From Acidobacteriaceae bacterium (GTDB lineage Bacteria; Acidobacteriota; Terriglobia; Terriglobales; Acidobacteriaceae), in the NCBI GenBank assembly GCA_025355505.1, contig JANXZM010000096.1, positions 1-64,000 on the forward strand: a stretch of 64,000 nt of DNA, in the 5' to 3' direction. The position numbers were made by a program, and so were the translations under genes. The stretch's first letter is position 1. The number at the start of each line of letters is the position of its first letter. Of this stretch, positions 15,680 through 34,409 are shown in pieces. The notes under the pieces were generated by a model. That model was not told where the DNA came from. It did not search any database and was given only the letters and a program-made list of their open reading frames with translations.

Positions 15680-15754
15680 CCCACGGGGGATTGCTCTATC
15701 GCAGGACCAAGGAAGTCGCGCCGGTTGCACCATCGGGGCAGGGACGAAGAAGAA

Positions 15755-17964: not shown

Positions 17965-19701
17965 TTGAACGCAACCAAGAGTCACCTTATCGCCCCACAC
18001 GGGGGAGAACTGGTTCAGCTGCAAGTGCCGGCCGCGCGTGCCGCAGAGTTAAAAGCGCAATCGAAGGATTGGCCTTCATGGGACCTGACTGCCCGGCAGC
18101 TTTGTGATCTGGAACTGCTGATGAGCGGCGGCTTCTCGCCGCTACGCGGGTTCATGAACCGTGCCGATTACGAGGGCGTCTGCCACAACATGCGGCTGGC
18201 GAACGGCACGCTGTGGCCGATGCCGATCACGCTCGACGTTACTGAGGACTTCGCCAAGAAATTGACGGCGGGCAGCAGCAAAATCGCACTGCGCGATGCC
18301 GAAGGCGTGATGCTCGCGGTGCTGAGCGTTGAAGATGTCTGGCAGCCTGACCGCAAAGCCGAAGCCCAGTCCGTTTTCAATTCCACCAGCGCTGCGCATC
18401 CGGGCGCCGACTACGCCATCAACAAATCGAATCCCTGGTATGTGGGCGGGAAAATTGAAGAGATGCAGGCTCCGGCGCACTATGATTTTCGCGCGCTGCG
18501 GCTCACTCCCGCTGACCTGCGCGCCCAATTCGCCCGCCTGGGCTGGACTACCGTCGTGGCCTTCCAGACCCGCAACCCCATGCATCGCGCTCACGTCGAA
18601 CTGACCATGCGCGCCGCCAAGCAAGTCGAGGCAAATCTGCTGATCCATCCCTCGGTCGGAATGACTAAGCCGGGCGATGTGGATTATTTCGTCCGCACCC
18701 GTTGCTACCAGTTGCTGCTCCCGAAGTACCCGCACGGAACCGTTGAACTCGCCATGCTGCCGCTGGCCATGCGCATGGGCGGACCGCGCGAAGCGGTGTG
18801 GCACGGCCTGATCCGCAAGAATCACGGCTGCACGCACTTTATCGTAGGCCGCGATCATGCGGGTCCTGGAAAAGATACCGACGGCAAGAACTTCTACGGT
18901 CCTTACGACGCCCAGGAATTGTTCAAGAAGCATGAAGCGGAAATGGGCGTCAAGATGGTTCCCTTCCAGATGATGGTGTATTTGCAGAACGAAGACCGGT
19001 ACGTTCCGGCTGATGAAGTGCCGCAGGGCGCGAAGGTACTCGACGTCTCCGGCACGGAATTGCGGGAGCGGCTCAACGAAGGCCGCGACATCCCGGCGTG
19101 GTTCACTTATCCGGAAGTGGTGCAGGAATTGCGCCTCAGTTATCCGCCACGGCACAAGCAGGGCGTCACCATTTTCTTCACCGGGCTTTCGGGATCGGGC
19201 AAATCCACTATCGCCAATGCTCTGATCACCAAGTTCCTCGAGATGGGCGGACGTCCGGTCACTCTGCTCGATGGCGATCTGGTTCGCAAGAACCTGTCGA
19301 GCGAACTTGGGTTCTCGAAAGAGCATCGCGACATCAACATCCGGCGCATCGGCTATGTTGCCTCCGAGATCACCAAGAACGGCGGCATCGCAGTGTGCGC
19401 CCCGATCGCTCCGTATGAGGCGACGCGCAAAGCGGTGCGGCAGATGATTGAACCGTTCGGCGGGTTTATTCTGGTGCACGCAGCCACTTCAATCGAGGTG
19501 TGCGAACAGCGCGACCGTAAGGGCCTGTACGCCAAGGCTCGCGCCGGCATCGTCAAGGAATTCACCGGCATCTCGGATCCGTACGAGGCGCCAATCGATG
19601 CCGAAGTCGTGATTGACACCGCCAAACTAAGCCCCGAGGAAGCGGCGCAGACCATCATTCTGCACCTCGAACGCGAGGGCTTCGTCGGCGCCAACGACTA
19701 G
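17965..19701 (+). CDS. Bifunctional sulfate adenylyltransferase/APS kinase
   Basis: Makes PAPS from sulfate and ATP in two steps. The ATP sulfurylase part (about 1-390) has QTRNPMHRAH (201-210) and GRDHAGPG. The C-terminal APS kinase part begins near residue 395 with the P-loop GLSGSGKST (about 409-417). Fusion in this order is known in Acidobacteriota and other bacteria. The TTG start is supported by GGGAGGAA 7 nt upstream. It heads a module with a TauE-like permease and CysQ, so it probably serves assimilation or sulfotransfer rather than sulfate respiration. Three sulfotransferase-like genes downstream are natural PAPS users. Confidence 0.95.
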   Translation: MNATKSHLIAPHGGELVQLQVPAARAAELKAQSKDWPSWDLTARQLCDLELLMSGGFSPLRGFMNRADYEGVCHNMRLANGTLWPMPITLDVTEDFAKKLTAGSSKIALRDAEGVMLAVLSVEDVWQPDRKAEAQSVFNSTSAAHPGADYAINKSNPWYVGGKIEEMQAPAHYDFRALRLTPADLRAQFARLGWTTVVAFQTRNPMHRAHVELTMRAAKQVEANLLIHPSVGMTKPGDVDYFVRTRCYQLLLPKYPHGTVELAMLPLAMRMGGPREAVWHGLIRKNHGCTHFIVGRDHAGPGKDTDGKNFYGPYDAQELFKKHEAEMGVKMVPFQMMVYLQNEDRYVPADEVPQGAKVLDVSGTELRERLNEGRDIPAWFTYPEVVQELRLSYPPRHKQGVTIFFTGLSGSGKSTIANALITKFLEMGGRPVTLLDGDLVRKNLSSELGFSKEHRDINIRRIGYVASEITKNGGIAVCAPIAPYEATRKAVRQMIEPFGGFILVHAATSIEVCEQRDRKGLYAKARAGIVKEFTGISDPYEAPIDAEVVIDTAKLSPEEAAQTIILHLEREGFVGAND

Positions 19702-19715
19702 GAAAGAAGTTCCCG

Positions 19716-19768
19716 GTTCTCAGTTCCTCAACTTGGTTTTGTTTTACTAAGGACTGGGAACTGAGAAC
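19716..19768. repeat. Inverted repeat between Sat-CysC and permease genes
   Basis: GTTCTCAGTTCC (19716-19727) and its exact complement (19757-19768) form a 12-bp stem with a 29-nt loop. There is no following U-tract in the right place, so it is more likely a spacer repeat or mRNA-stabilising hairpin than a terminator. Confidence 0.6.
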
Positions 19769-19780
19769 TACTCAAACGCC

Positions 19781-20551
19781 ATGGATTCATTGCTCCTAAG
19801 AATACTGATCGGTTTCACAGTAGGAACGCTGATCGGGTTGACGGGTCTGGGCGGCGGCGTATTGCTGCTGCCCATGCTCATCTTCGGCTTGCACATCCAG
19901 CCGATCATCGCGGTCGGCTCGGATGCACTGTTCAACTTTTTCACCAAGATTCCCGCCAGCATCATGCACCTGAGCAAAGGGACCGTGCGGAGAAAAGTTG
20001 TGCTGGCGATGGCAGTCGGCAGCATTCCCGGCTCGTATCTGGGCGTAACTTTTCTGGTACACCTGCGCCACGTCTATGGCAACGGCGTCAACGACTTCAT
20101 CAAGTCGGCCGTGGGACTGCTGCTGGTATTGATTCCCACGCTGCTTCTGTTCCAGGGACGGATTGAAGAACATCTCGCCAAGCGCCAGCCCACGATGAAA
20201 TCATTTGCCTTCATGAGTGTCATTGGACTGGTCGGCGGATTTCTGGTCGGCATCACTTCGGTGGGTTCGGGCAGCATCATCATGATGATGCTTCTTTTGT
20301 TTTATTCGTTCGCGCCCAAGATCATGGTCGGCACCGACATTGCCCATGCGGTGATCTTGACCGGCGTCACCAGCCTGTTGCACTATCGGGCGGGCAACGT
20401 CGACCTTCCGCTGGTTGGTTCCCTGCTGATCGGCTCAATTCCCGGTGGAATGCTCGGCTCGCATCTGAGCACGCGCGTTCCCGTGCTGTGGCTGCGCCGA
20501 ATCCTGTGCACGGTTTTGCTGATGACGGGAGCAAGAATGCTGTGGGCTTGA
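19781..20551 (+). CDS. TauE/SafE-family membrane permease
   Basis: A 256-residue membrane protein with about eight hydrophobic segments. Two TauE/SafE repeat halves are seen: GLTGLGGGVLLLPML near residue 15 and the matching GLVGGFLVGITSVGSGSIIMM near residue 150. Family members export sulfite or sulfoacetate or import sulfate or other oxyanions. Its position between Sat-CysC and CysQ suggests sulfate uptake for PAPS synthesis or sulfite efflux; direction of transport is not decided by sequence. Confidence 0.85.
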   Translation: MDSLLLRILIGFTVGTLIGLTGLGGGVLLLPMLIFGLHIQPIIAVGSDALFNFFTKIPASIMHLSKGTVRRKVVLAMAVGSIPGSYLGVTFLVHLRHVYGNGVNDFIKSAVGLLLVLIPTLLLFQGRIEEHLAKRQPTMKSFAFMSVIGLVGGFLVGITSVGSGSIIMMMLLLFYSFAPKIMVGTDIAHAVILTGVTSLLHYRAGNVDLPLVGSLLIGSIPGGMLGSHLSTRVPVLWLRRILCTVLLMTGARMLWA

Positions 20552-20634
20552 AAGGCATTGAATCATTGAGTCATTGAGTCGCGAAATCAATGTCTCAACG
20601 CCTGGATACTGGGTACTTATTCACGGAGAACTTA

Positions 20635-21450
20635 ATGACCTCATCCTCATCCGCAGAAACTCTTGAACGCATTCACGCTGCCCTTGAAGCGGCGCGGGCG
20701 GTGCTGAACCGCTTCACACCAGGCGCCATTGAAACCGAATACAAAGTTGGACACGATCCGGTCACCGAGGCCGATCGCGCCGTCGACGACATTTTGCGGA
20801 AGACTCTTCTGCGCCCCGGCGAAGGCTGGCTTTCGGAAGAGACCGTGGACGACTTCACTCGCCTCGACAAGCAGCGCGTCTGGGTCGTCGATCCGCTCGA
20901 CGGCACTCGCGAGTTTGTGCAAGGTATCCCGGAGTTCTGCGTTTCGATCGCCATGGTTGAGAATGGAATTGCTGTCGCTGGCGGAATCTGCAATCCGGCA
21001 ACCGACGAACTCATCCTGGGATCGCGCGACACCGGCGTAACCTACAACGGGAAGCCCGCACAACCGAGCCAGCGCAAGGACCTGCACGGCGCTCTCGTGC
21101 TCGCCAGCCGCAGCGAAGTGAAGCGTGGCGAGTGGAAGCAGTTCGAGTCCGCCGAGTTCAATATTCGTCCCATGGGATCGGTGGCCTACAAACTCGGACT
21201 GGTCGCCGCCGGCCGCGCGGATCTCACCTTCACGCTGGTTCCAAAAAATGAGTGGGACGTTGCCGCTGGGGCGGCGCTGGTGGAAAGCGCCGGAGGCTGG
21301 GTGCTCAAGCTAGACACTTCTCCGCTGCGCTGCAACCAGAAAAATCCGCTGATCTCCGGCCTGCTGGCGGGGAGTCCGTTTCTGCGCGATCCGCTGCTCG
21401 CCCTGCTCGACCGGCACGCGCAGACCGTCGGCGCTGACAAACAACCCTAA
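20635..21450 (+). CDS. cysQ: 3'(2'),5'-bisphosphate nucleotidase CysQ (inositol-monophosphatase family)
   Basis: Hydrolyses 3'-phosphoadenosine 5'-phosphate (PAP), the by-product of every sulfotransferase reaction, to AMP. The Mg/Li-sensitive phosphatase motifs are present: E-E in WLSEETVDD, DPLDGTREFVQG (near residue 92) and the C-terminal WDVAAGAALVESAGG. ATG at 20635 follows GGAG by about 6 nt and is preferred to an ATG at 20590. Location beside Sat-CysC and before the sulfotransferases argues for PAP recycling, although inositol or histidinol phosphate hydrolysis is possible in this family. Confidence 0.88.
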   Translation: MTSSSSAETLERIHAALEAARAVLNRFTPGAIETEYKVGHDPVTEADRAVDDILRKTLLRPGEGWLSEETVDDFTRLDKQRVWVVDPLDGTREFVQGIPEFCVSIAMVENGIAVAGGICNPATDELILGSRDTGVTYNGKPAQPSQRKDLHGALVLASRSEVKRGEWKQFESAEFNIRPMGSVAYKLGLVAAGRADLTFTLVPKNEWDVAAGAALVESAGGWVLKLDTSPLRCNQKNPLISGLLAGSPFLRDPLLALLDRHAQTVGADKQP

Positions 21451-21475
21451 CCTCAGGAACATTGTCCCTGGAAAA

Positions 21476-22261
21476 ATGGCTGCCTCGCGCATCGTATTCC
21501 TGATGTACCACGAGCTGGAGCTTGCTGGCCGGAAACTCTGCCAGTCCGAGCCCGGCTACGTGCGCTACATTCTGCCGCTCGAGACTTTCCGCCGCCAGAT
21601 GGCTTGGATCAAGGAATCCGGCTGGCGCGGCCTGAACGTCGGCGAAGCTCTTCGCTATCCTGCCGAACCGAGCGTTTGTATCACATTTGACGATGGCTGC
21701 GAGACCGACCTTATCGCCGCCGCGCCCATGCTCCGCGAGTTCGGCTGCAACGCAACCTTCTATCTCACCGCTGGATTCCTGGGCACGCCCGGTTACCTCA
21801 ATGCCAGCCAGGTGCGCGATCTCGACGCGCAGGGATTCCAGATCGGCTGCCATTCGATGACGCACCCTTATCTCTCCGATCTCCCGGAGCCGGAACTGAA
21901 GCGCGAAGTCGTGGATGCGAAGCTCCAGATCGAAGCCATCGTCGGACATTCCATCGAACACTTCTCCTGTCCGGGAGGACGCTACGACCAGCGCACGCTC
22001 CAGATGGCGCGCCAGGCCGGATTCGCAACCGTCGCCAATAGCCAGTTTTATGCGAACTCCTCCGGCACCAGCCCCTACGAACTCGGCCGCGTAGCCCTGC
22101 TGCGTGACCTCACCTTAGAGGAATTCAGCGCGACCTGCCATGGCCGCGGGTTGTGGAAGAAACGCCTTCAGCATCAGGCCCGGCGCAACGTCCAGCGCGT
22201 GCTCGGAAACCGCGCCTACGATCACCTGCGCGCGGTCCTGCTGGGGGAATCCCGCCAGTAA
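21476..22261 (+). CDS. Polysaccharide deacetylase (NodB homology)
   Basis: A 261-residue carbohydrate esterase family 4 type protein that removes N- or O-acetyl groups from sugars. Catalytic TFDDG lies at 70-74 and metal-binding HSMTH at 126-130; FSCPGGRYD (about 160) supplies the motif-3 Arg. No signal peptide is visible. It follows cysQ by 25 bp and probably belongs to the same transcript. It differs in sequence from the deacetylase half of the fusion protein at 15755. Confidence 0.87.
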   Translation: MAASRIVFLMYHELELAGRKLCQSEPGYVRYILPLETFRRQMAWIKESGWRGLNVGEALRYPAEPSVCITFDDGCETDLIAAAPMLREFGCNATFYLTAGFLGTPGYLNASQVRDLDAQGFQIGCHSMTHPYLSDLPEPELKREVVDAKLQIEAIVGHSIEHFSCPGGRYDQRTLQMARQAGFATVANSQFYANSSGTSPYELGRVALLRDLTLEEFSATCHGRGLWKKRLQHQARRNVQRVLGNRAYDHLRAVLLGESRQ

Positions 22262-22419
22262 CCGCAATTTTGGCTATTTTAGTTTCCCTGCCCTCAGCCT
22301 CTTCTTCCACTCCATGCCGTAACCATGGAACAGCCTCTCACTCCAGATCGCCCGTCCCGCACCTGCTTTCCCTTACTTCGCACCAAATGCACGGGTGGAC
22401 ACTGGGGGCATGCGAATCC

Positions 22420-22442
22420 GTACATGCCGCGCCCGCATGTAC
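22420..22442. repeat. Short perfect inverted repeat upstream of the Ig/beta-helix gene
   Basis: GTACATGC (22420-22427) and GCATGTAC (22435-22442) flank a 7-nt GC-rich loop. About 110 bp later, just before the gene, is the motif CCCCCATACTTTAGTAC (near 22524-22540) with a short TACT/AGTA dyad. These could be regulator sites for the surface-protein gene; no family can be named. Confidence 0.45.
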
Positions 22443-22555
22443 TAACGCGTCCCCAATGAACTTCCGGCATCTGGGAACCCTTGCCCCATCCCGATAGATT
22501 CAGCGTGAGGACAATCGACTAGTCCCCCATACTTTAGTACGGTCGAGGGCTCGCA

Positions 22556-25234
22556 ATGTTTGAAACAGTGACAAGGTTTGAAAAGAGAAATGCATTCCTA
22601 AGTCATTCCAGATTTCCCCCTGCGTTGGCACAGCGCCTAAGCGTCTTGATCATCCTGCTCGTGGTTGCGCTGATGACCACCTCTTGCGGTTCGGCGGCAC
22701 AAGCCGCCGGCACGCAGACCAACGGGACCCCCAACAACCTGAACTTGTACGGAAATCTTCCCGGGGGGACGGTCAGTGAGTCATACAACGCTGTGCTCGC
22801 AGTAGGGGGCGGAAACTTCCCCTACCAGTTCTCGGTAAAAACGGGCGCGCTGCCCCCGGGTATCAGTTTGAACCCAGCCACAGGGACGTTCTCGGGGCAT
22901 CCTGCAACCGCGGGTAACTTCTCGTTTGAGGTGATTGTGACCGACTCCCCGCGCCTCGACCGGGGTAGACAGAAGTTCGATGTTGCTATCGCTGGTAGCG
23001 GCGGCGGCGGGAATGTCGCGGTCAGTGTGTCTCCGGCCAGCGCCACTTTGTTGTCGATTCAGAAGCAGCAGTTCACAGCCACGGTCAGCGGAACTTCCAA
23101 TACCGGGGTGACGTGGTCAGCAACGGGAGGGTCGGTCGATGCCAATGGTCTTTACACCGCGCCGACGGTGACCGCGCCAACTAACATGGTCGTTAAGGCG
23201 ACCAGCAAAGCTGACTCCTCGAAATCAGCCAGCGCTGCCATCACCGTTAACCCCGTGAACAACCAGGCACTAATAATCACAACCGGGAATCTTCCCCAGG
23301 GCCAGCAAGGGGACACTTATAGCGAAGTCTTCGCCGCGACCGGCGGAAGTACACCTTACAGTTGGAGCATTTCCGCAGGCACTCCTCCCGCGGGAATCGC
23401 GATGAATGCGAGCGGGAATTTTGCCGGCATGCCCAGCGCAGCCGGTACATCCAACTTCACGGTCACTGTCACCGATGCCGCCGCCAAGACTACAACCGGA
23501 ATTTTCAGCGTCGCCGTCATTGCCGGTGGTAATTTCGATGGTCCGGCGGAACTGCCGAGAGTGACCGTCCCCAGTGCGATGGCGGACACGCCCGCGCCGG
23601 GAGCAGTCATCACCGTCAACGCGGGCGGCGATCTGCAATCAGCCTTGAACAGCGCTCACTGCGGTGACGCGATCCACCTTCAGACGGGCGCAACCTTTAC
23701 CGGCAAGTTCATTGTGCCGGCCAAGAACTGCGACAACAACCACTGGATCATCATCCGCACCAGTTCTCCGGACAGCGCTCTGCCTGCGGAAGGACAGCGC
23801 GCCACGCCTTGCTATGCCGGGGTCGCTTCTCTCCCGGGGCGCCCACAATATAGCTGCTCCAATCCAAAGAACGTGATGGCAAAAGTACAGATTCAAACCC
23901 AAGGCGACGGTCCATTCCAGATCGCCACCGGCGCCAACTATTACCGGTTCATCGGCTTGGAAGTTACTCGCCCCGCCGGAGCCCCCGGGCCCGCCGGGCT
24001 GATCACGGGCAAAGGCACCGCGGATCACTTGGTGGTGGACCGCTCATGGCTGCATGGAGCGCTGCAGGATGAAACTCACGTCGGCGTAAGCTTGAGTGGC
24101 ATGACCAACGTGGCGGTCGTCGATTCCTATTTCAGCGACTTCCATTGCATCTCAGTGAGCGGAGCTTGTACCGACTCTCACGCGATTTCCGGTGGCGTCA
24201 GCGCTACTCAGGATGGCCCCTTCAAGATCCAGGACAACTTCCTGGAAGCATCGAGTGAGGCGGTGCTGTTCGGCGGCGGCGGGGCCACCTTCTCCCCAAG
24301 CGACATCCAAATCCTGAACAATCACTTCTGGAAGCCTTGGCAGTGGATGCCTGGCAGCCCGAACTTTATCGGCGGATCGGACGGCCATCCCTTCGTCGTC
24401 AAGAATCACCTCGAACTCAAGAATGCGGTTCGCGTGCTGGTCGAGGCCAATCTCATGGAAAACAACTGGGGAGGCTTCAGCCAAAGCGGCTACGGCATTC
24501 TGCTCACCCCCAAGAACCAACACACCCAGAGCGGCTCTAACATTTGTCCGCTGTGTCAGGTCACCGATGTCACCATCCGCTATGTACACATCTCGCATGC
24601 CGGGGGCGGAATCCAGATGGCAACCGCCATCTCCGGCAACGGCACAGATGGAGCCCAGGCGCTGGCTGGCACTCGCTGGAGTATTCATGACGTGGTTCTC
24701 GACGACCTCAACAGAAAATATGTGGGCGGCGGCAGCGTGTTCCTGATCATGAACACGTGGCCCAAGAACCCGCTCAACACCATCACCATCAATCACGTCA
24801 CCGGTTTTCCGGATCCCAACGGCCACATGATAGTCATGGGGAACATCTACACAACCGTGCCCATGTATGACTTAGTTTTCACCAACAACATGATGGTTAC
24901 CGCCGCGCATCCGGTGTGGAGCTCAGGAGGCGGCCAAGCCAACTGCGCCTATTTCGACGTACCCGTCACTACCATCACCAGCTGTTTCACTACCTTCACC
25001 TTCAGCAGCAACAGCTTGGTCGCAACTCCATCGGCGTTTCCCCCGTCGACATGGCCATCGAACAACATGTTCCCGCAAACCATCAACGATGCCGGGTTCG
25101 TCAACTACAACAACGGCAATGGCGGAAACTACGCGCTTCAGTCGAACAGCACTTACAAGAACAAAGGCACGGACGGCAAGGATCTCGGCGCCGACATTGT
25201 TGGACTCAACGCAGCGCTGGCGAACGTCGAATAA
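22556..25234 (+). CDS. Secreted lipoprotein with Ig-like domains and C-terminal parallel beta-helix
   Basis: An 892-residue surface protein. A hydrophobic segment (about 28-40) ends in a lipobox-like TTSC with C44 as the lipidated residue. Two putative-Ig (He_PIG-like) domains (about 60-138 and 240-325; note GALPPGISLNPATGTFSGHP) flank a Big2-like domain (about 150-238). From about residue 350 a right-handed beta-helix begins, with NAGGDLQSALNSAHCGD and repeated N-x-F/H turns, as in pectate-lyase-like folds. No lyase active site was recognised. The C-terminal part is clearly related to the next gene. It could bind or trim the polysaccharide; this is inference. Confidence 0.8.
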   Translation: MFETVTRFEKRNAFLSHSRFPPALAQRLSVLIILLVVALMTTSCGSAAQAAGTQTNGTPNNLNLYGNLPGGTVSESYNAVLAVGGGNFPYQFSVKTGALPPGISLNPATGTFSGHPATAGNFSFEVIVTDSPRLDRGRQKFDVAIAGSGGGGNVAVSVSPASATLLSIQKQQFTATVSGTSNTGVTWSATGGSVDANGLYTAPTVTAPTNMVVKATSKADSSKSASAAITVNPVNNQALIITTGNLPQGQQGDTYSEVFAATGGSTPYSWSISAGTPPAGIAMNASGNFAGMPSAAGTSNFTVTVTDAAAKTTTGIFSVAVIAGGNFDGPAELPRVTVPSAMADTPAPGAVITVNAGGDLQSALNSAHCGDAIHLQTGATFTGKFIVPAKNCDNNHWIIIRTSSPDSALPAEGQRATPCYAGVASLPGRPQYSCSNPKNVMAKVQIQTQGDGPFQIATGANYYRFIGLEVTRPAGAPGPAGLITGKGTADHLVVDRSWLHGALQDETHVGVSLSGMTNVAVVDSYFSDFHCISVSGACTDSHAISGGVSATQDGPFKIQDNFLEASSEAVLFGGGGATFSPSDIQILNNHFWKPWQWMPGSPNFIGGSDGHPFVVKNHLELKNAVRVLVEANLMENNWGGFSQSGYGILLTPKNQHTQSGSNICPLCQVTDVTIRYVHISHAGGGIQMATAISGNGTDGAQALAGTRWSIHDVVLDDLNRKYVGGGSVFLIMNTWPKNPLNTITINHVTGFPDPNGHMIVMGNIYTTVPMYDLVFTNNMMVTAAHPVWSSGGGQANCAYFDVPVTTITSCFTTFTFSSNSLVATPSAFPPSTWPSNNMFPQTINDAGFVNYNNGNGGNYALQSNSTYKNKGTDGKDLGADIVGLNAALANVE

Positions 25235-25273
25235 TTTTTCAGCTTCGACGGATTTTCAGCTCCCCAGCAATCG

Positions 25274-25310
25274 AGGTCCGCGGCTCGCCGCGGACCTTCT
25301 CTTTTTTCTC
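25274..25310 (+). terminator. Intrinsic terminator after the Ig/beta-helix gene
   Basis: A perfect 10-bp stem AGGTCCGCGG (25274-25283) / CCGCGGACCT (25288-25297) with a CTCG loop is followed by a T-rich tract TCTCTTTTTTCTC. It lies 40 bp after the stop codon and separates the two beta-helix genes. Confidence 0.85.
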
Positions 25311-25453
25311 GCGTAATCACGTCCTACCAGGAAAGTCGATCGGGCAGGGCCCGTGCTATCCTCCACTCATCCCAGTACACTGTGGACTGAAGGCCTCTCC
25401 GCGGTGATTACCGGTGCATGCGCGGGGCGTGCGACATAAGGAGAAACTACAAC

Positions 25454-27310: not shown

Positions 27311-27393
27311 AAGTCCAAGTCGCGGCCTAGTCAACCCGCTGGTGACTTCCGTAACCCCTGTTTTAACAAGGGTTTCAAACAGCCCGGGCCACC

Positions 27394-28458
27394 TTGCGTG
27401 ATAAGATTTTTAGGGTGCCCACACCCAGTCCTAGCAATCGCCAGCATGCTCCCGTCTTCGTGATGGGCTGTCACCGCTCTGGGACGAATCTGCTTTACGA
27501 CATGTTGTTGTCCTCCGGCGGGTTCGCCATCTACCGCGGGTTTCTGCCGATTTACAAAATTCTGATCCCCCGCTTTGGCTCCATGAAGAGCCGCGCGAAT
27601 CGCGAAAAGATCCTCGCGACCTGGCTCCATGGCAAGGGTTTCCGGCGCACCGGGCTCGATGCCGAGCAGCTGTCGGCGCGCATCCTGAACGAATGCCGCA
27701 ACGGAGGGGACTTTATCCGCGTGGTCATGGACGCGGTGGCCAGCAGCCAGCAAGTGCAGCGCTGGGCGGTGTACGATCCTGACAATGTGCTGCACGTCGA
27801 GCGGGTGAAGCGCGACATACCCAACGCGCTGTTTGTGCACATCATCCGCGACGGGCGCGACATTGCGCTCTCGCTCAAGAAAATGGGGGGCTTCACTCCT
27901 CTGCCCTGGGACCGCAGCCAAACCGACAGCCTGGTGGCGACTGCGCTGTATTGGGAGTGGATGGTTCACAAGGGCCGCGCCCATGGCGGCAAGTTTCCTG
28001 CCGACTACATCGAGATTCGCTACGAAGACCTGATTACCAACCCGCACGAAACGCTCGGCAAACTCGGCGGTTTTCTCGATCACGATCTGGACTACGACCG
28101 GATTCAACGGGCTGGCCTGGGCCGCCTGTCCGAAACCAACTCTTCGTTTCGCGAAGAAGGCGCGAAAGAATCAATCAATCCGCTGGGCCGCTGGAAAGAA
28201 CGTCTGGCGCACGCCGATGTCGCCGCCATCGAAGCAACCGTGGGCGAGTGCCTGCAGGAAAATAGCTACGAACTGTCGTTGCCCGCCGCCGAGCGCCGCC
28301 GGAGCTTGCGCCAGTGGTGGATGCGCGGAATGTATCCCGGCTTTCTCGGCAGCAAGCTGTGGCTGAAGCTGCATACGCCGGTCGGCCGGCTCGCCAACAT
28401 GTCTGCGCTCGAACTTGAAGAAGAACCAGCGCCGGTGGCGGAGTCGGTCGGGTCCTGA
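27394..28458 (+). CDS. Sulfotransferase family protein (first of a tandem pair)
   Basis: A predicted PAPS-dependent sulfotransferase. The 5'-phosphosulfate loop is GCHRSGT (25-31) and the 3'-phosphate site is HIIRDGRDIALS (149-160). These match the Sulfotransfer_3-like family that modifies sugars or small molecules. A WKERL-type segment and aromatic-rich C-terminus follow. The start is uncertain: TTG at 27394 or GTG at 27415, neither with a strong ribosome binding site. It is a paralogue of the next gene (shared RTGLD, PLPWDRS, HDLDYDRIQ segments), arranged in tandem 8 bp apart. Confidence 0.82.
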   Translation: MRDKIFRVPTPSPSNRQHAPVFVMGCHRSGTNLLYDMLLSSGGFAIYRGFLPIYKILIPRFGSMKSRANREKILATWLHGKGFRRTGLDAEQLSARILNECRNGGDFIRVVMDAVASSQQVQRWAVYDPDNVLHVERVKRDIPNALFVHIIRDGRDIALSLKKMGGFTPLPWDRSQTDSLVATALYWEWMVHKGRAHGGKFPADYIEIRYEDLITNPHETLGKLGGFLDHDLDYDRIQRAGLGRLSETNSSFREEGAKESINPLGRWKERLAHADVAAIEATVGECLQENSYELSLPAAERRRSLRQWWMRGMYPGFLGSKLWLKLHTPVGRLANMSALELEEEPAPVAESVGS

Positions 28459-28466
28459 GGATTGTC

Positions 28467-29558
28467 ATGAATCCGGCAACCAGAGTGATGAAAAACGCCC
28501 TCGTCGAGAATCAGCCAGCCCCTCAGGCGGCGGTGCCGGCCATGCGGGGCGCGCGTTCTAAGGCTCCCGTGTTTGTGCTGGGCTGCGGACGCTCCGGAAC
28601 CAAGTTCCTGTACCACACGCTACTTTCCGCCGGCGGGTTCGCTGTCTATCATGCGGAGAGCAACGCCTTCAACCTGCTTGGCCTGCGCTTCGGCAACCTC
28701 GCCCATCGCGGCAACCGCCGCCAACTGCTCGACGCCTATTACATGAGCAAGTTGTTTCAACGGACGGGACTCGATCCCAAAGATATCGAAGATCGCGTGA
28801 TGGAAGATTGCCGCAATGCCGGCGACTTCCTCCGCATCGTGATGGAAACCATCGCCGGCAAGCAAGGCGTCGAGCGCTGGGCTGAATCTACGCCGCTGCA
28901 CTTGCTCTATCTTCCGTTGATCAAGAGAGTGATTCCCGATGCTCTCGTCGTCCACATTATTCGAGACGGCCGCGATGTCACCGCTTCATTGCACCGCATC
29001 GGCTGGATTCGTCCGCTGCCGTGGGACCGCAGCCGCGCGTTTCTTGTGCCCGCCATCTTCTGGCGATGGATCGTAAGCAAGGGCCGGCGCTACGGTCAGG
29101 CGCTCGGCACCGATTACATGGAAGTTCACTACGAGGATCTGGTGCTGAATCCGCGCGAAACGCTGGCGTACATTGGCAAGTTCATTGAACACGACCTGGA
29201 CTATGACCGCATCCAGCAGGTCGCTCTCGGATCGGTGCACAATCCGAATTCTTCGTTTCGCGGCGACGGTAAGGAGACCGAAGCGAGCACCATCGGCCGG
29301 TGGAAACGCATGTTCACTCCACCGCAGGTTCGCGACATCGAGTCGAGCATCGGCAACCTGCTCGTCGATACTGGGTACGCGCTCGAAACACCGCCAGCAG
29401 AGCGCAAATCGTCGCTATCTGTGCGCTTGATGAATTTTCTGTATCCGTTATATTTCGCCGTCAAACTTTGGCTGAAATCGGATACTCCGCTGGCCCGTCT
29501 CGCCGACAAGGGGCGCATGGGCAGCGCCGAGTCCGATGCGAAGCCCGAGGCTAAGTAG
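28467..29558 (+). CDS. Sulfotransferase family protein (second of a tandem pair)
   Basis: Same family as the preceding protein. The PAPS 5'-loop is LGCGRSGT (38-45) and the 3'-phosphate site HIIRDGRDVTAS (163-174). An extra 20-residue N-terminal extension is Ala/Pro-rich. Divergence between the pair is substantial outside the motifs, so they probably modify different positions or acceptors. The upstream CysQ and Sat-CysC genes would supply PAPS and remove PAP. Confidence 0.82.
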   Translation: MNPATRVMKNALVENQPAPQAAVPAMRGARSKAPVFVLGCGRSGTKFLYHTLLSAGGFAVYHAESNAFNLLGLRFGNLAHRGNRRQLLDAYYMSKLFQRTGLDPKDIEDRVMEDCRNAGDFLRIVMETIAGKQGVERWAESTPLHLLYLPLIKRVIPDALVVHIIRDGRDVTASLHRIGWIRPLPWDRSRAFLVPAIFWRWIVSKGRRYGQALGTDYMEVHYEDLVLNPRETLAYIGKFIEHDLDYDRIQQVALGSVHNPNSSFRGDGKETEASTIGRWKRMFTPPQVRDIESSIGNLLVDTGYALETPPAERKSSLSVRLMNFLYPLYFAVKLWLKSDTPLARLADKGRMGSAESDAKPEAK

Positions 29559-29594
29559 AGTGTGGCGCGAGTACGGTTCGTATCAGGGCATGCC

Positions 29595-29661
29595 TTCAGG
29601 TGTTCAGGCATGCCGAAAGTGCTGCGTCATGAGAGCGCCTTCAGGCGCTGAGGCCGTAGAT
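29595..29661. repeat. Palindrome-rich intergenic repeat
   Basis: Two GGCATGCC palindromes lie about 22 nt apart, followed by a GCGCCT/AGGCGC hairpin. It is similar in style to the other REP-like intergenic elements of this window. No gene overlaps it. Confidence 0.45.
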
Positions 29662-29687
29662 CGGAGTTTCACCACGAGTTACTGACG

Positions 29688-30119
29688 ATGAAGGCGATTT
29701 CCCTAACCTGGCGGCCTGAAGGCGCGTTTCACCACGTGGGCTTCGTCGTGGCTTCGATTCCGAGTTCCGTGCAGGGATTTGCCAGCATGTTGCAGGCAGA
29801 TTGGGACGAACAAGTTTTTCACGATCCCAATCAGTGCGTTCGGGTCACGTTCCTGAAGAGCCGGCGCGCGGACGATCCGCTGTGGGAGCTGGTGGAACCG
29901 GCCGATGAACAATCGCCCGTGCATTCCTTCGCAGCCAAGGGCGGCGGGCTGCACCATGTTTGTTATGTCGTGGACAATCTGGAGGAGGCACTCGCCAAGG
30001 CGCGCACGCTGGGAGCGATCGTGACGCGGCAGCCGATGCCAGCGGTCGCGTTTGGCGGCCGGCGCATCGCATGGATCTACACCAGGAACCGTTTGCTGAT
30101 CGAGTATCTGGAACGCTGA
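29688..30119 (+). CDS. VOC-family protein (glyoxalase/epimerase fold)
   Basis: A 143-residue protein with two beta-alpha-beta-beta-beta modules: FHHVGFVV near residue 14 and LHHVCYVV near 88, with a C-terminal LLIEYLE. Metal ligands typical of the fold are present (H in HHVGF, H in HHVCY, E in IEYLE). Methylmalonyl-CoA epimerase-like VOC proteins have this layout. It precedes FkbH and ACP, so it may act on an acyl group or its precursor. The reaction cannot be named. Confidence 0.75.
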   Translation: MKAISLTWRPEGAFHHVGFVVASIPSSVQGFASMLQADWDEQVFHDPNQCVRVTFLKSRRADDPLWELVEPADEQSPVHSFAAKGGGLHHVCYVVDNLEEALAKARTLGAIVTRQPMPAVAFGGRRIAWIYTRNRLLIEYLER

Positions 30120-30135
30120 TTTCATTTCTAATTCG

Positions 30136-32085
30136 ATGTCCGATTCGATCTCCAATTCGCCGTCCGATTCGACTTCCGCTGAGCGCAATCCGTCAAACCT
30201 GCGTGCCGAAGTCGACGGGCTGATCGCCGAAGGCGCTTTCGATCGCGCCTCGCGGCGGCTGGCGGAGCTTTGGCGGCGCGATCCCGCGTCGGGTACGGCG
30301 AGCTTCGTGACCTCGCGACTCGACGAGTTGCGCGACAAGTCGGGGCACAAACTACCTCTTACAACATTTAAACTGGCGGTTCTGCGCTCGTTCACGGTCG
30401 AGCCCATCGTGCCGCTCTTGCGGGCGGAAGCATTCGCGTTCGGGATCGATCTGGAAGTCCATGTTGGCGATTTCAATACATACGTACAGGACATGCTCGA
30501 TAGCCAGAGTTCGCTCTATCGCTTTGCTCCGAACGCGGTCGTACTGGCGGTACGCGCCGACCAGGCCGCGCCCGAGTTGTGCCGTGACTTCGCCGATCTG
30601 GCACCGGAAGCGGCGCAGCAGGCCGCCGAGCGCGTGGTTCGCGGCTACCAGCAGTGGATCGGCGCGTTTCGAAAACACAGCCAGGCGGCGCTGATCATTC
30701 ATTCCCTCGAACGCCCGTCATCTCCAAGTCTCGGAGTTCTCGACGACCAATCCGAGGCGGGCCAGTCCGGACTCATCCGGCAGATCAATCGAGAGCTGCG
30801 GCGCGTCGCCGAAGAATTCCACGGAGTGTACGTACTCGACTACGACGCGCTGGTGGCGCGACATGGCAGCGAGCATTGGCACGACGAGCGCAAGTGGCTG
30901 ACGGCGCGGCTTCCCATCGCGGCTGGTTATCTTCTTCCGATGGCGAGCGAGTGGATGCGTTTTATCGTGCCGCTTAGCGGCCGCACCGCTAAAGTTCTGG
31001 TCGTCGACCTGGACAACACGCTGTGGGGCGGCGTGATCGGCGAAGATGGCATCACCGGCATTAAAGTTGGCGTCGAATATCCGGGCGCGGGGTATCAGGC
31101 TTTGCAGCGCGCTCTGCTCGATCTGTCGCGTAAAGGAATTCTGCTCGCCGTGTGCAGCAAGAACAATCTCGACGATGCCATGGAAGCGCTGGAGGAGCAT
31201 CCCGGAATGCTGGTGCGCGCGAAACATTTCGCAGCGATGCGTGTTAACTGGACGGACAAAACGCAGAATCTCCGCGAGATTGCACAGGAGCTGAACGTCG
31301 GCATGGATGCGCTTGCCTTTCTCGACGACAATCCCTTCGAGCGCGAGCAAGTTCGCGCCGCGCTTCCCGAAGTTACCGTCATTAGTCTTCCGAAGAATCC
31401 GCTGGGGTATGCCGCCGCTGTCAGAAATTGTGCGGCGTTTGAGCGGCTGACCCTTTCGTCCGAAGACCAGCAGCGCACTAAAATGTATGCGGTACAGAAG
31501 CAGCGCGCCGGCGCTGAACAGAATTTCCAGACAAAAGAAGATTTCTTTCGCTATCTCGAGCAGGAAGCTGAACTGGAACTTGTGTCGGGCCTGACGCTGG
31601 CGCGGGTTGCGCAAATGACGCAGAAGACCAACCAGTTCAACCTGACGACCAGGCGCTACACCGAACCGCAGATTGCGGAGATGGCTGAAAAGCCGGGGTG
31701 GCACATATTTTCGATTCGAGTGCGCGATCGTTTTGGCGACCACGGACTAGTCGGGGTCGCGATCGTGCACGACGAAGGCGAGCAGTGCGAAGTGGATGCC
31801 TTTTTGCTGAGCTGCCGCGTCATCGGAAGAACGGTCGAAACCGCGCTTCTCGCCCATCTGGCCGAGACCGCTGCCCAGCGCGGCTGCAAACGGCTGGTAG
31901 GATGGTTTCTGCCGACGAAGAAAAATGCTCCGGCCCGCGATTTCTATCCACAGCATGGCTTCGAGCGGAAGGAGGTACATGGCACGGGCTCGCTGTGGAC
32001 TCTCGATCTGACGGCTTCCACTTCTCATTGCCCCGATTGGATTAAGCTGGTAACGAGGGAAACAAAAACGGGAGGAAAGAATTGA
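30136..32085 (+). CDS. FkbH-like HAD-IIIC enzyme (acyl/glyceryl loading onto ACP)
   Basis: FkbH-type proteins take 1,3-bisphosphoglycerate, dephosphorylate it and load a glyceryl unit onto an acyl carrier protein. The central HAD domain has VVDLDNTLWGG (D291, D293) with CSKNN as motif 2 and FLDDNPFER as motif 4. The C-terminal GNAT-like region includes RVAQMTQKTNQFNLTTRRY, diagnostic of FkbH. The N-terminal 250 residues form the usual SGNH-like extension. The 4-nt overlap (TTGA) with the ACP gene supports a functional pair. Confidence 0.9.
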   Translation: MSDSISNSPSDSTSAERNPSNLRAEVDGLIAEGAFDRASRRLAELWRRDPASGTASFVTSRLDELRDKSGHKLPLTTFKLAVLRSFTVEPIVPLLRAEAFAFGIDLEVHVGDFNTYVQDMLDSQSSLYRFAPNAVVLAVRADQAAPELCRDFADLAPEAAQQAAERVVRGYQQWIGAFRKHSQAALIIHSLERPSSPSLGVLDDQSEAGQSGLIRQINRELRRVAEEFHGVYVLDYDALVARHGSEHWHDERKWLTARLPIAAGYLLPMASEWMRFIVPLSGRTAKVLVVDLDNTLWGGVIGEDGITGIKVGVEYPGAGYQALQRALLDLSRKGILLAVCSKNNLDDAMEALEEHPGMLVRAKHFAAMRVNWTDKTQNLREIAQELNVGMDALAFLDDNPFEREQVRAALPEVTVISLPKNPLGYAAAVRNCAAFERLTLSSEDQQRTKMYAVQKQRAGAEQNFQTKEDFFRYLEQEAELELVSGLTLARVAQMTQKTNQFNLTTRRYTEPQIAEMAEKPGWHIFSIRVRDRFGDHGLVGVAIVHDEGEQCEVDAFLLSCRVIGRTVETALLAHLAETAAQRGCKRLVGWFLPTKKNAPARDFYPQHGFERKEVHGTGSLWTLDLTASTSHCPDWIKLVTRETKTGGKN

Positions 32086-32330
32086 CAGCCAGTACGTTTG
32101 AGCAGGTGCGGAACGTCGCCAGCGATATTTTCGGAATTCCGGCGGACAAGATCACGGCGGAATCCTCGCCGGAAACGATCGAGAACTGGGATTCCATGCA
32201 ACATCTGAATCTGGTTCTCGCCATCGAAGAAAAGTTCAGAGTGCAACTCGATCCCGAAGATATTGAGCAGATGAAGAACATCGCCGCGGTCGCAACGCTG
32301 GTCGAGAAACTGCAATCCTCCACGCGCTGA
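32082..32330 (+). CDS. Acyl carrier protein
   Basis: An 82-residue carrier with the phosphopantetheine attachment site at S38 in NWDSMQHLNL. The TTG start overlaps the FkbH stop, and GGAGG lies 7 nt upstream. It is divergent from fatty-acid ACPs, as expected for a dedicated carrier of the FkbH product. The probable cargo is glyceryl or a derivative. Confidence 0.9.
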   Translation: MTASTFEQVRNVASDIFGIPADKITAESSPETIENWDSMQHLNLVLAIEEKFRVQLDPEDIEQMKNIAAVATLVEKLQSSTR

Positions 32331-32368
32331 TGCTTTTTAAGTTGAATTAACGCTCACACCCTTGATTC

Positions 32369-33505
32369 ATGGCCATCGTCATCCAGCCCTATCGTCCCGA
32401 ACACGAGCCCGCCGTAGCGGATTTCAATCAGCGCCTCCGGCAAGCGGGCGAGGACCAGAACATGGTGTTCTACCAATGGGCGCAGCCACGCTGGCTCCCG
32501 CGTTCCGCGGACTCCCGCGTCTACAATGAATTTTTCGTCGCCGTCGATGGCGGAATTGTGCGCGGCGGCTACGCGCTCAAAGGCCAAGAGTTTTTCTTTC
32601 CCGACGGACAGATTCGCTCGATTGCCTACTATCACCATCCGCTGTCCGAGGGCATCGTCAACAAGGCTCATGCCATAGTGGGCACGCTGCTGCTGCGCGA
32701 CGCGATGCAGCGTGCGCCGCTGCTCTACTGTCTTGGCATGGGCGGATACGACAATCCGTTGCCGCGGATGCTGGTTCGTTTGGGATGGGCACATTGCCTG
32801 GTTCCGTTCTTCTTTCGCGTCGTGAATCCTTCGCGCTTTCTGAGAAATATGCAGACCCTGCGCTCGTCGCCATCGCGAAAGTTTCTGATGGACCTTGCAG
32901 CCTACAGCGGCGCTGGTTGGGCCAGCTCGAAGCTGTTCCACGGCTACCGCTCTCTCGGAGCGCCCCGGTCAGCGACAGCCGAGTGCTGCGAAGTCGCGAG
33001 CTTCGAAGCCGCTAAAGTCGCCGAGAGCTTGCAGTCTCTATGGGAACAGGCGCGGCAGACTTGCTCGTTCACGGCAGTACGGGATGCCGAGGCGTTGGGC
33101 ATTTTGTATCCTTCGGCGCAAACGCATCTCACCCGCATTGTGATGAAGCGCAACGGCTCCGCGATTGGATGGGCCGTAGTCGGCGAACGCCGCAAGGACT
33201 CAAAGTACGGCAACATGCGGGTCGGGTCGGTCGTTGACTGCTTCGCACTTCCGGGAGAATTGTTTTCCGTTGTGCGATGCGCCACTCAGACACTCGAGCG
33301 GCAGGGCTTCGACCTGATCCTCAGCAATCAGAGTCACCAGGCCTGGGGTGAGGCGTTCAAGGCCGCGGGCTATCTGCCGGGACCATCAACTTTTCTTTTT
33401 GCCGCGTCGAAGAAGCTGGCGGAATTGCTGGCTCCGTTTGAAGAAGTACGTCCGCGAATGCATCTGACGCGCGCGGATGGAGATGGGCTGCCGGGGAATT
33501 TCTAG
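32369..33505 (+). CDS. GNAT-family acyltransferase
   Basis: A 378-residue protein with an N-terminal GNAT-like fold (IQPYRPEHEPAVADFN start, then VAVDGGIVRGGYAL and IAYYHHPLSEG) and a second, more diverged half with VKRNGSAIGWAVV-like strands, suggesting a double GNAT domain. It follows the ACP by 38 bp and could transfer the acyl group from ACP to the sugar. The acceptor is unknown. It is convergent with the leftward sulfotransferase gene. Confidence 0.7.
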   Translation: MAIVIQPYRPEHEPAVADFNQRLRQAGEDQNMVFYQWAQPRWLPRSADSRVYNEFFVAVDGGIVRGGYALKGQEFFFPDGQIRSIAYYHHPLSEGIVNKAHAIVGTLLLRDAMQRAPLLYCLGMGGYDNPLPRMLVRLGWAHCLVPFFFRVVNPSRFLRNMQTLRSSPSRKFLMDLAAYSGAGWASSKLFHGYRSLGAPRSATAECCEVASFEAAKVAESLQSLWEQARQTCSFTAVRDAEALGILYPSAQTHLTRIVMKRNGSAIGWAVVGERRKDSKYGNMRVGSVVDCFALPGELFSVVRCATQTLERQGFDLILSNQSHQAWGEAFKAAGYLPGPSTFLFAASKKLAELLAPFEEVRPRMHLTRADGDGLPGNF

Positions 33506-33536
33506 AGCCGCCGTCAGCTATCAGCTACACCCGCCT

Positions 33537-34409
33537 TCACAGGATCGCTTGGGTGATTGCGGCGGCCTCTGGTTTGGTTTCGGTGGAGAGCTTGTAGCCT
33601 AGTTGTTTCATCAGCGGGCCCCACTGCGCTTCCATGCAGGTGACGGTTTTTTCGGGAAGGATGGCTCGCCATCCTCCGGAAGAGGCTTTGCGGACGAACG
33701 GCTTATCGCTGCGGGTGTGGAACGTGGCTACCCATTTCTTGCCCTGCGTCTCTTCCATCTTGCGCATGTTGGCGGCGGAACTTAGTTCGATGGCGCGGTT
33801 GATGCGCTCGGGATCGGGATTGAGGCCCATGAACTGGGCTACGCGCGCCAGTTCGCGCGGCTGATTTTGCTGCAGATCTTCGTAGCGCATCAGGAGGAAG
33901 CTATCGTGTCCCTGGCGCGTGGCCAGCCAGCTATTCACGTGGTCGGCCCAGGAACCGATACGGCGCCAGAAGTTACCGTCCATCCAGAGGGGAACGAATT
34001 CTTCAAGGGGACAGCCGTCGGGAATCGAACGCAGCTTCATCTCCCAGTGATAGTTGGAGATGGCCACATCGCGCGGGTCACGCACGATGTAAATCACGCG
34101 GCGGTAGCGGGCGTCGAAGGACTCGTGGCTTTTGAGCACGCGCGGGCGGGGAAGGCGCCGGAGGGCCCAGTCGGCGGTCTTGTACATGTCGGGAACCAGG
34201 CGTTCGACATTCAGGAAGGTGACGGGTTCGTTAGGATTCACGAAATTGCCAACCAGGAAACGCGTCCAGGTGTTGCCGGAACGCGGATAGGACGTGAGAA
34301 AAACGTCGTCGTCGAAAATGGTGATTTCGCGCTCGATCAGCGTGCGGCGAAACAGCACGTCGTGAACCCGCGATAGATGCCGGAATGCCCTGCGAACGAG
34401 TAACGCCAT
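33537..34409 (-). CDS. Sulfotransferase (Sulfotransfer_1 family)
   Basis: A classic PAPS-dependent sulfotransferase of 290 aa. The 5'-PSB motif is TSYPRSGNTW (39-48), the catalytic His is H95 in KSHESFD, the 3'-phosphate motif is YIVRDPRDVAISNY (107-120), and the C-terminal RKASSGGWRAIL resembles the RKGxxGDWK PAPS-binding loop. These make it the most convincing sulfotransferase of the three. It lies in a leftward group with a FemAB-like gene and the AlgD-like dehydrogenase. Confidence 0.92.
   Translation of the reverse strand: MALLVRRAFRHLSRVHDVLFRRTLIEREITIFDDDVFLTSYPRSGNTWTRFLVGNFVNPNEPVTFLNVERLVPDMYKTADWALRRLPRPRVLKSHESFDARYRRVIYIVRDPRDVAISNYHWEMKLRSIPDGCPLEEFVPLWMDGNFWRRIGSWADHVNSWLATRQGHDSFLLMRYEDLQQNQPRELARVAQFMGLNPDPERINRAIELSSAANMRKMEETQGKKWVATFHTRSDKPFVRKASSGGWRAILPEKTVTCMEAQWGPLMKQLGYKLSTETKPEAAAITQAIL

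Follow-up and report, generated by a model that had tools for sequence, protein, structure and literature searches.

Background

The locus described here raises the question of why genes for making a sulfate donor, 3'-phosphoadenosine 5'-phosphosulfate (PAPS), stand next to three sulfotransferase genes in the midst of polysaccharide genes, and what the products of these genes sulfate. The analysed stretch, G000:C103:1-64000 (hereafter the window, i.e. the whole 64,000 nucleotides), belongs to the genome of an Acidobacteriaceae bacterium (G000), which comprises 4.16 Mb on 119 contigs and has a completeness of 96.17%. Within the window, a polysaccharide-modification island spans positions 12867-41642, and all of its frames are uninterrupted. 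Judged by the first of the sulfotransferases, ST1, the closest named record is Acidobacteriaceae bacterium isolate palsa_296 (92% identity), followed by fen_85 (89%) and bog_256 (88%).

The island as a probable sulfation module

We consider it likely that the island serves to sulfate a polysaccharide, either the polymer itself or its lipid-linked unit. The reading that fits best is a sulfated glycan, because PAPS supply, probable removal of 3'-phosphoadenosine 5'-phosphate (PAP) and sulfotransferases recur as one unit among polysaccharide genes and no reductive use of PAPS was found in G000. A sulfated, uronate-containing glycan had already been the core prediction of a first-pass annotation of this DNA, and linkage, recurrence and the lack of a detected reductive outlet still point to sulfation of a glycan. 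PAPS genes and sulfotransferases lie within polysaccharide genes at one locus, as expected of a sulfated-polysaccharide cluster, and this arrangement recurs in relatives. The gene set is not a product of chance, because the same set recurs in relatives from the genus and the family. The order of the steps, the acceptor, the identity of every sugar and the sulfate in the product are what we infer from these genes.

The genes which carry this reading are the following:

17965-19701, plus strand: Sat-CysC, bifunctional sulfate adenylyltransferase/adenosine 5'-phosphosulfate (APS) kinase (NF004040, 928.2 bits)
19781-20551, plus strand: TauE/SafE-family permease (PF01925, 154.9 bits)
20590-21450, plus strand: probable CysQ-like PAP phosphatase (PF00459, 166.4 bits; TIGR01331 best, below its cut-off)
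27394-28458, plus strand: ST1, PAPS-dependent sulfotransferase (PF13469, 91.9 bits; sulfotransferase fold in the model)
28467-29558, plus strand: ST2, paralogue of ST1 (PF13469, 77.5 bits)
33537-34409, minus strand: ST3, Sulfotransfer_1-family sulfotransferase (PF00685, 131.7 bits)

Sat-CysC matches NF004040 over its whole length and above the curated cut-off of 669, and carries GLSGSGKST, which we take to be the APS-kinase P-loop, as well as the motifs searched for as presumable sulfurylase motifs. On these grounds PAPS is probably made by Sat-CysC, as had been annotated. A profile search of the genome returned a single PF01747 match, the island Sat-CysC itself. The TauE protein is a possible sulfate importer; a full-length match to PF00916, the SulP-family permeases, exists elsewhere in the genome on contig C74.

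The case of the phosphatase is more complicated. Its best NCBIfam match is TIGR01331, i.e. CysQ, with 133.6 bits against a cut-off of 228.8, and the nearest structures in the Protein Data Bank (PDB) are SuhB/inositol monophosphatase (97.2 bits) and then CysQ (83 bits). The protein, one of two PF00459 proteins in the genome, contains DPLDGTREF, presumably a CysQ-type motif. We use the CysQ name because of the genomic context and this motif, TIGR01331 being below cut-off, and do not file the protein as a CysQ family member; it may work like CysQ. The earlier claim that CysQ removes PAP is thus probable from context, but the family cut-off is not reached.

ST1, ST2 and ST3 are the sole PF13469 or PF00685 matches in the genome. 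All three score over the Pfam cut-off and keep both of the motifs searched for, which we take to be the PAPS-binding motifs, in agreement with the previous description of three sulfotransferase-family proteins with intact motifs. ST1 and ST2 are paralogues with 44% identity, and none of the three shows a signal segment. ST1, the only one of the three that was modelled, adopts the fold of PAPS sulfotransferases (predicted local distance difference test, pLDDT, 87.2; predicted template modelling score 0.86). Alignment A4 has 45 rows, namely ST1, ST2, 42 relatives chosen from frames (78 matched ST1) and L149. A relative of ST2 with 46% identity is also found outside the Acidobacteriota, in a Gemmatimonadota record (L135, CP070722.1), possibly by horizontal transfer.

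In the proposed mechanism, Sat-CysC would convert sulfate and ATP into PAPS in the cytosol, and ST1, ST2 and ST3 would pass the sulfate of PAPS on to sugar hydroxyl or amino groups, most probably at the stage of the undecaprenyl-linked repeat unit and ahead of its outward transfer by the flippase; the CysQ-like phosphatase would clear the product PAP. An AlgD-type dehydrogenase would provide GDP-mannuronate, deacetylases and an N-formyltransferase would adjust amino sugars, FkbH and a carrier protein would load an acyl group, probably of the glyceryl type, for further decoration, AsnB may amidate the uronate, and secreted beta-helix proteins might trim or epimerise the exported chain. The island as a whole would then be dedicated to sulfating and decorating a secreted polysaccharide of the Wzx/Wzy type.

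Recurrence in relatives

For the comparison, 61 genomes (G000 included) were searched, together with a phylum sample of 396 Acidobacteriota genomes. The ST1 family is present in 26 of the 61, i.e. in G000, in 22 of the 23 other genus members and in 3 of 13 genomes from other genera of the family. PF01747, which stands for Sat, is matched in 21 of these 26 genomes vs 12 of the 35 without the ST1 family, and the one genus member that lacks the ST1 family (G001) has no PF01747 match either. Of the 21 genomes with both, again counting G000, 15 have the ST1-family gene and Sat on the same contig, separated by 21 kb or less; in the remaining six they are on different contigs, in assemblies of ~160-590 contigs.

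Order and content of the island vary, and nevertheless Sat-CysC, TauE, CysQ, the deacetylase, the beta-helix proteins, FkbH, FemAB, AlgD, the heparinase-like protein and AsnB recur across relatives. The Sat-CysC/TauE/CysQ unit keeps its proximity to the sulfotransferases while the rest of the island rearranges. In the stretches read, an island has between 1 and 6 sulfotransferases: three of the ST1/ST2 type and three of the ST3 type in G006, two and three in G016, one and four in each of G010 and G011, and a single one in each of G028 and G014. The 57 named loci that were compared are not independent (L113 and L142, for example, share a contig, as do L111 and L146), and 29 of them do not reach 19 kb. 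Within the set identity limits, 12 of the other 28 contain a homologue of Sat, TauE or CysQ, 18 contain AlgD, and 8 have neither AlgD nor a PAPS gene. Two gap proteins of relatives (L063:17918-19318 and L057:3821-4990) have no Pfam match.

At the level of the phylum, sulfotransferases as such are not rare, with some PF13469 protein in 158 of the 396 genomes, but the ST1/ST2 family is rare and was found in 4 of the 396 at E 1e-40.

Fate of PAPS

PF01507, which covers PAPS reductase and CysD, yields one weak match in G000 (27.9 bits), and this frame is TilS according to Pfam (PF01171 180.9 bits, PF09179 28.8 bits), so that CysH and CysD were not found by the PF01507 profile search of this 96%-complete genome. 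Sulfite reductase was not found either, as PF01077, which comprises sulfite and nitrite reductases, has no match in the genome search. Since neither PAPS reductase nor sulfite reductase is detected, sulfate transfer is probably the only purpose for which PAPS is made in the species of G000; other species may use it for transfer and reduction alike. In a genome of this completeness, genes could have escaped notice on a missing contig; this explanation is less likely because two pathway steps are absent together and because G033, which is 99% complete, has Sat and sulfotransferases and no match to PF01507 or PF01077. The same two matches are lacking in G005, G020 and G021, but these are only 71-75% complete. 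In the whole set, PF01507 is matched in 43 of 61 genomes, a count that includes TilS-type matches, and PF01077 in 48 of 61.

If sulfate reduction is indeed lacking, the lineage might activate sulfate solely for the decoration of a glycan, and PAPS would be used only for an exopolysaccharide that contains mannuronate, is acylated and is N-deacetylated or N-formylated to a variable extent; how many sulfotransferases an island has, which differs between species, would then give each species its own sulfation pattern on a polymer chemically intermediate between alginate and heparan sulfate. We put this forward tentatively, as something possible rather than probable.

A separate observation concerns six other members of the genus (G002, G004, G009, G010, G018 and G019), which have adjacent pairs of PF01077 frames of ~360-430 amino acids in a dissimilatory-type layout; G000 has no PF01077 match.

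Evidence weighed against polysaccharide sulfation

A number of findings weigh against the reading as a polysaccharide-sulfating module; they concern the PAPS genes, the acceptor and the polymer. With regard to the PAPS genes, five ST1-family genomes (G003, G008, G014, G020 and G023) have no PF01747 match, and although the stretches of G008 and G014 stop at CysQ at a contig end, that of G003, which is rated 100% complete, does not. Sat-CysC and a CysQ homologue occur without a sulfotransferase in the stretches read of G027, G032, G034 and G036. In G016 the island Sat-CysC is the sole Sat and exists alongside a CysH-type match and a sulfite-reductase-type protein. Dedication of Sat-CysC to sulfation is not general, because relatives such as G016 pair their single Sat-CysC with CysH and sulfite reductase.

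The genomes that keep Sat-CysC and a CysQ homologue without a nearby sulfotransferase, and the several relatives with such a pairing, would agree with an ordinary assimilatory sulfate unit of Sat-CysC, TauE and CysQ that came to lie beside polysaccharide genes by chance. However, G000 and G033 have no detected PAPS reductase or sulfite reductase, and the unit remains near the sulfotransferases through the rearrangements of the island, so that we regard this explanation as highly improbable.

With regard to the acceptor, the closest folds to the ST1 model are tyrosylprotein sulfotransferases (TPST1, Z 18.6 over 230 residues, root-mean-square deviation, rmsd, 4.0) and the sulfotransferase domains of olefin synthase (Z 18.1) and curacin (Z 17.9), ahead of the heparan-sulfate enzymes (heparan 3-O-sulfotransferase-3, Z 13.9; NDST1, Z 13.5). 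The fold of ST1 therefore indicates the type of reaction and not the acceptor. In a plasmid collection ST1 matches 23 records, including a sulfotransferase of the plasmid pSYSM (E 9e-12, 25.7% identity), which lies among glycosyltransferases and a flippase and is taken to be a member of the synechan locus, a relationship that speaks for polysaccharide sulfation; a cyanoexosortase-associated gene is found near this region. Proteins of small-molecule-like clusters in Sinorhizobium and Cupriavidus are equally close, with ST1-family profile scores of 80 and 86 bits vs 87 bits for the pSYSM protein.

A phylogeny of 28 hand-chosen rows, in which long branches may join falsely, including that of the Dinoroseobacter row in the ST3 group, gave a divided answer to the question, put forward with the first-pass annotation, of whether the sulfotransferases belong with carbohydrate-acting families. 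ST3 groups with sulfotransferases of polysaccharide loci (support 97/96), but ST1 and ST2 form a clade of their own that is joined to neither sugar nor non-sugar enzymes. One pSYSM sulfotransferase is grouped with two from small-molecule clusters (93/79) outside the ST1/ST2 clade, and the second sits on a very long branch without an informative position. NodH could not serve as a reference, as no frame of the fetched pSymA stretch, which is unannotated there, matched the two sulfotransferase profiles at an E limit of 0.1. We infer a sugar acceptor for ST1-ST3; neither fold nor phylogeny settles it.

It is conceivable, then, that the acceptor of the sulfotransferases is no sugar but a tyrosine of a protein, a small molecule, a lipid or a chain bound to an acyl carrier, and that the polysaccharide genes merely lie nearby. 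Besides the fold of ST1, two observations would be in line with this: in S. fredii and Cupriavidus, the relatives of ST1 adjoin genes for condensation-domain proteins and GMC oxidoreductases, and close to ST2 there are FkbH and the acyl carrier protein. No polyketide or nonribosomal peptide synthetase gene is present among the scanned island genes, however, the recurring neighbours are sugar genes, and ST3 falls with the enzymes of polysaccharide loci. ST3 matches 14 records at E 1e-10, and glycosyltransferases abound in the two annotated neighbourhoods that were inspected, those of Bradyrhizobium and Dinoroseobacter. For ST1, the curacin domain is matched with E 0.017 in the PDB search vs the value given above for pSYSM in the plasmid search, two figures from different databases and programs that are only loosely comparable. 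Taken together, a non-sugar acceptor appears quite unlikely.

With regard to the polymer, no recognised glycosyltransferase was found inside the island of G000 by Pfam and NCBIfam scans of its proteins, and the assembly-like frames of this genome are on a separate contig, C48 (29717-47228; L160, L161), where they end beside a GroEL-like frame. Their recognition is based on a single glycosyltransferase match (75% identity) and on the similarity of their translated starts and lengths to those in G016, not on family scans. In G016 the assembly genes are joined to the island. Following the island AsnB, the order is a glycosyltransferase-like frame that was not family-scanned, a TIGR03088-like glycosyltransferase, a second AsnB, a protein without family match, a methyltransferase, a Wzy_C polymerase, a TIGR03087-like glycosyltransferase and another frame, and then an initiating phosphotransferase, a tyrosine kinase, an XrtA-type ATPase and a chain-length determinant, with an exosortase further along. 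The initiating transferase (TIGR03013) and the exosortase (TIGR04152, XrtD, 439.8 vs 400 bits) are over cut-off; below it are exosortase A (TIGR03109, just) and TIGR03087, TIGR03088, TIGR03007, TIGR03015 and TIGR03018. Beside the island of G009, G011 and G033 there is also a second AsnB along with frames whose starts are similar, and further on in G009 there are frames resembling the initiating transferase and its companions; all of these were judged by start and length only. The island end that adjoins DNA polymerase X is common to G000 and G016. Because the assembly frames of G000 sit on C48 and the corresponding genes of G016 are joined to the island, we regard the island as a probable modification module which, in the species of G000, is set apart from its polymer machinery.

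The exosortase of G016 near the assembly genes brings up another possibility, namely that a sulfated glycan is indeed made, though not as a free exopolysaccharide but as an O-antigen or as a glycan bound to protein in an exosortase system. AsnB and FemAB, which resemble the XrtA/PEP-CTERM kind (below cut-off), and the polymerase-like protein of G016, which matches O-antigen ligase families, would fit. G016 has, however, a chain-length determinant, a tyrosine kinase and an initiating transferase of the exopolysaccharide kind, and we hold this variant to be rather unlikely.

Sugar-modifying genes and predicted chemistry

The genes named in the first-pass annotation are all present as intact frames, but two of them, the dehydrogenase and the heparinase-family gene, fall just outside the region to which the set had been assigned. 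Its reasoning had not included the acyl carrier protein, FkbH, FemAB, AsnB, the flippase and the beta-helix proteins. The remaining genes of the island are:

12867-14438, plus strand: Wzx-type polysaccharide flippase (PF01943, 72.3 bits; 11 hydrophobic segments)
14675-15679, plus strand: conserved island protein of 334 amino acids (no Pfam or NCBIfam match; homologues in 8 of the 57 named loci)
15725-17464, plus strand: sugar N-formyltransferase fused to polysaccharide deacetylase (PF00551, 45 bits; PF01522, 54.1 bits; motifs of both domains present)
21476-22261, plus strand: polysaccharide deacetylase without hydrophobic signal segment (PF01522, 90.8 bits; motifs, hydropathy)
22556-25234, plus strand: secreted protein with putative immunoglobulin domains and a region homologous to the 25418 gene (PF05345, 68.9 bits, two stretches; N-terminal hydrophobic segment)
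25418-27310, plus strand: secreted right-handed beta-helix protein, lyase/epimerase-like (fold of the AlphaFold2 model; N-terminal hydrophobic segment)
29688-30119, plus strand: glyoxalase/epimerase-superfamily protein (PF13669, 63.7 bits; TIGR03081 below cut-off)
30136-32085, plus strand: FkbH-type HAD-IIIC acyl-loading protein (TIGR01686, 307.4 bits, over the cut-off of 146.65)
32082-32330, plus strand: acyl carrier protein of 82 amino acids (PF00550, 28.2 bits, over the cut-off of 20.8)
32369-33505, plus strand: conserved protein of 378 amino acids, possibly an acyltransferase (no Pfam or NCBIfam match; homologues in 18 of the 57 named loci)
34440-35471, minus strand: FemAB/GNAT-like protein (PF13480, 47.4 bits; TIGR03019 below cut-off)
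35591-36916, minus strand: AlgD-like GDP-mannose 6-dehydrogenase (match to 1mfz)
37239-39689, plus strand: heparinase II/III-family protein without hydrophobic signal segment (PF07940, 139.5 bits; PF16889, 110.7 bits; hydropathy)
39690-41642, plus strand: AsnB-type amidotransferase, XrtA/PEP-CTERM-like (TIGR03108, 576.6 bits, below the cut-off of 816.9; TIGR01536, 525 bits, over the cut-off of 267.1)

The dehydrogenase at 35591-36916 matches the GDP-mannose 6-dehydrogenase 1mfz over nearly its whole length with 449.7 bits vs 227.3 bits for the next, a UDP-glucose dehydrogenase, and contains GGSCLPKD, which we assume to be the catalytic cysteine motif. It probably makes GDP-mannuronate, which would bring mannuronate rather than glucuronate into the polymer. 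The uronate that had been predicted is thereby kept, probably as mannuronate from an AlgD-type enzyme.

The model of the 25418 protein (pLDDT 79.0) aligns best with the alginate lyase 6kfn (Z 24.1, 278 residues, rmsd 2.6), followed by RbmB (Z 23.4) and by the epimerase modules of AlgE6 (Z 22.2) and AlgE4 (Z 21.8); tailspikes and polygalacturonases come next with Z 20-21.5, and other glycosidases also match. This suggests a resemblance to alginate lyases and mannuronan epimerases, and only a class is proposed and no reaction assigned because lyases, epimerases, tailspikes and glycosidases all match by fold. A sequence search of the PDB with this protein returned nothing up to E 1. The beta-helix region that it shares with the 22556 protein is 36% identical, and alignment A3 consists of the two window proteins and 22 chosen relatives.

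FkbH proteins and their carrier proteins load an acyl group as in the formation of glyceryl-ACP (acyl carrier protein), and the pair found here predicts a decoration of the glycan with an ACP-borne acyl group. The carrier protein gene overlaps the 3' end of FkbH and is small enough to escape size limits. AsnB-type amidotransferases may amidate the carboxyl groups of uronates, as is known from O-antigen systems, and would therefore remove the charge of the uronate.

Heparinase-II/III and AsnB proteins are often found in O-antigen and exopolysaccharide loci. The heparinase-family protein of the island shows no hydrophobic signal or membrane segment in a crude hydropathy scan, and its best curated models are far under cut-off (NF045573, 121.4 vs 700). 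A mimicry of glycosaminoglycans, suggested by the presence of this gene, was considered and dropped on account of these two features and the AlgD-like dehydrogenase. The chemistry comparable to glycosaminoglycans that had been proposed is likewise not supported, as the genes give no sign of a backbone in which hexosamine alternates with a hexuronate such as GlcA or IdoA, and mannuronate is the uronate to be expected from the dehydrogenase. In general, the backbone is not predictable from the genes, and our confidence in the identities of the sugars is much lower than that in the sulfation of a polysaccharide.

The layout of the fusion protein at 15725-17464 recalls heparan sulfate N-deacetylase/N-sulfotransferase. 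Full-length homologues of it, more than 70% identical, are found in the stretches read of G003, G010, G016 and G022.

Comparison with known systems

The closest published case is Cobetia marina KMM 1449, where cysN/C, cysD, cysQ and a sulfate permease are described in one operon and sulfotransferases in the polysaccharide cluster, and where the structure of a sulfated capsule is reported in the title of the paper (PMC11766843). Both loci pair PAPS genes, CysQ, a permease and sulfotransferases; Cobetia is however a marine bacterium with an ABC-transporter capsule and a CysND-type sulfurylase (PMC11766843), whereas the island has a fused Sat-CysC, a flippase and AlgD and belongs to soil Acidobacteriota. 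Vibrio sp. KMM 8419 is similar to the island in having PAPS genes, there as second copies, and several sulfotransferases in its capsule cluster, a combination its authors regard as the hallmark of a sulfated polysaccharide (PMC11641403). It differs by its ABC-transporter capsule and its UDP-glucose and dTDP-rhamnose genes, and the main text of the paper does not name cysQ (PMC11641403).

The xss locus for synechan in Synechocystis PCC 6803 is, like the island, of the Wzx/Wzy kind and includes two sulfotransferases, one of which is probably the detectable relative of ST1; unlike the island it lies on a cyanobacterial plasmid, and the main text mentions neither PAPS nor cysC (PMC8205485). Synechan is described there as composed of rhamnose, mannose, galactose, glucose and sulfate, with no uronate (PMC8205485). 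Pontiella sulfatireligans F21 has three putative glycosaminoglycan sulfotransferase genes, one of them within a glycosyltransferase cluster, but belongs to the marine Kiritimatiellae, and PAPS is not named in the main text (PMC7356697). Together with work on granular sludge (PMC10483923), Pontiella (PMC7356697) points to a wider occurrence of such polymers, the enzymes of which are described as poorly known.

A comparison with alginate is also obvious. AlgD, C5-epimerases and alginate lyases belong to the alginate enzymes, and the island contains an AlgD-like sequence and an epimerase- or lyase-like beta-helix fold, but no alginate polymerase was recognised among the scanned island genes, and no genome search was aimed at one. 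We know of no report of a bacterial sulfation of alginate.

It was stated in 2021 that no sulfated polysaccharide had been reported from bacteria other than cyanobacteria (PMC8205485). No paper on the biosynthesis of sulfated polysaccharides in Acidobacteriota was found among the matches listed, judged by titles and the beginnings of abstracts, a scope that leaves subscription papers and preprints mostly outside. The island brings a type of gene cluster that is already known into a further group of organisms and offers no new mechanism. It is not a new kind of system because PAPS genes, CysQ, a permease and sulfotransferases in a capsule cluster have already been published for Cobetia.

Sulfated polysaccharides are often regarded as typical of animals, algae, cyanobacteria or marine organisms. 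A recurrent sulfation island of Acidobacteriota, known from metagenome assemblies, would bring the chemistry of sulfated polymers into soils, the nearest named records being titled as isolates of palsa, fen and bog, and would mean that a part of the soil sulfate goes into an extracellular polymer and not into respiration or assimilation. In addition, the island offers new sulfotransferases with paired donor-supply genes on which sugar specificity can be tested.

Other features of the window

Outside the island, a phage-type integrase is encoded to its left at 5941-7221, near the contig end. On the minus strand at 52213-54412, a nucleotidyltransferase adjoins an APH-domain/RapZ-C protein in the manner of a sugar-salvage pair. 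A PAS histidine kinase, a response regulator and a hybrid kinase are clustered at 57427-61797.

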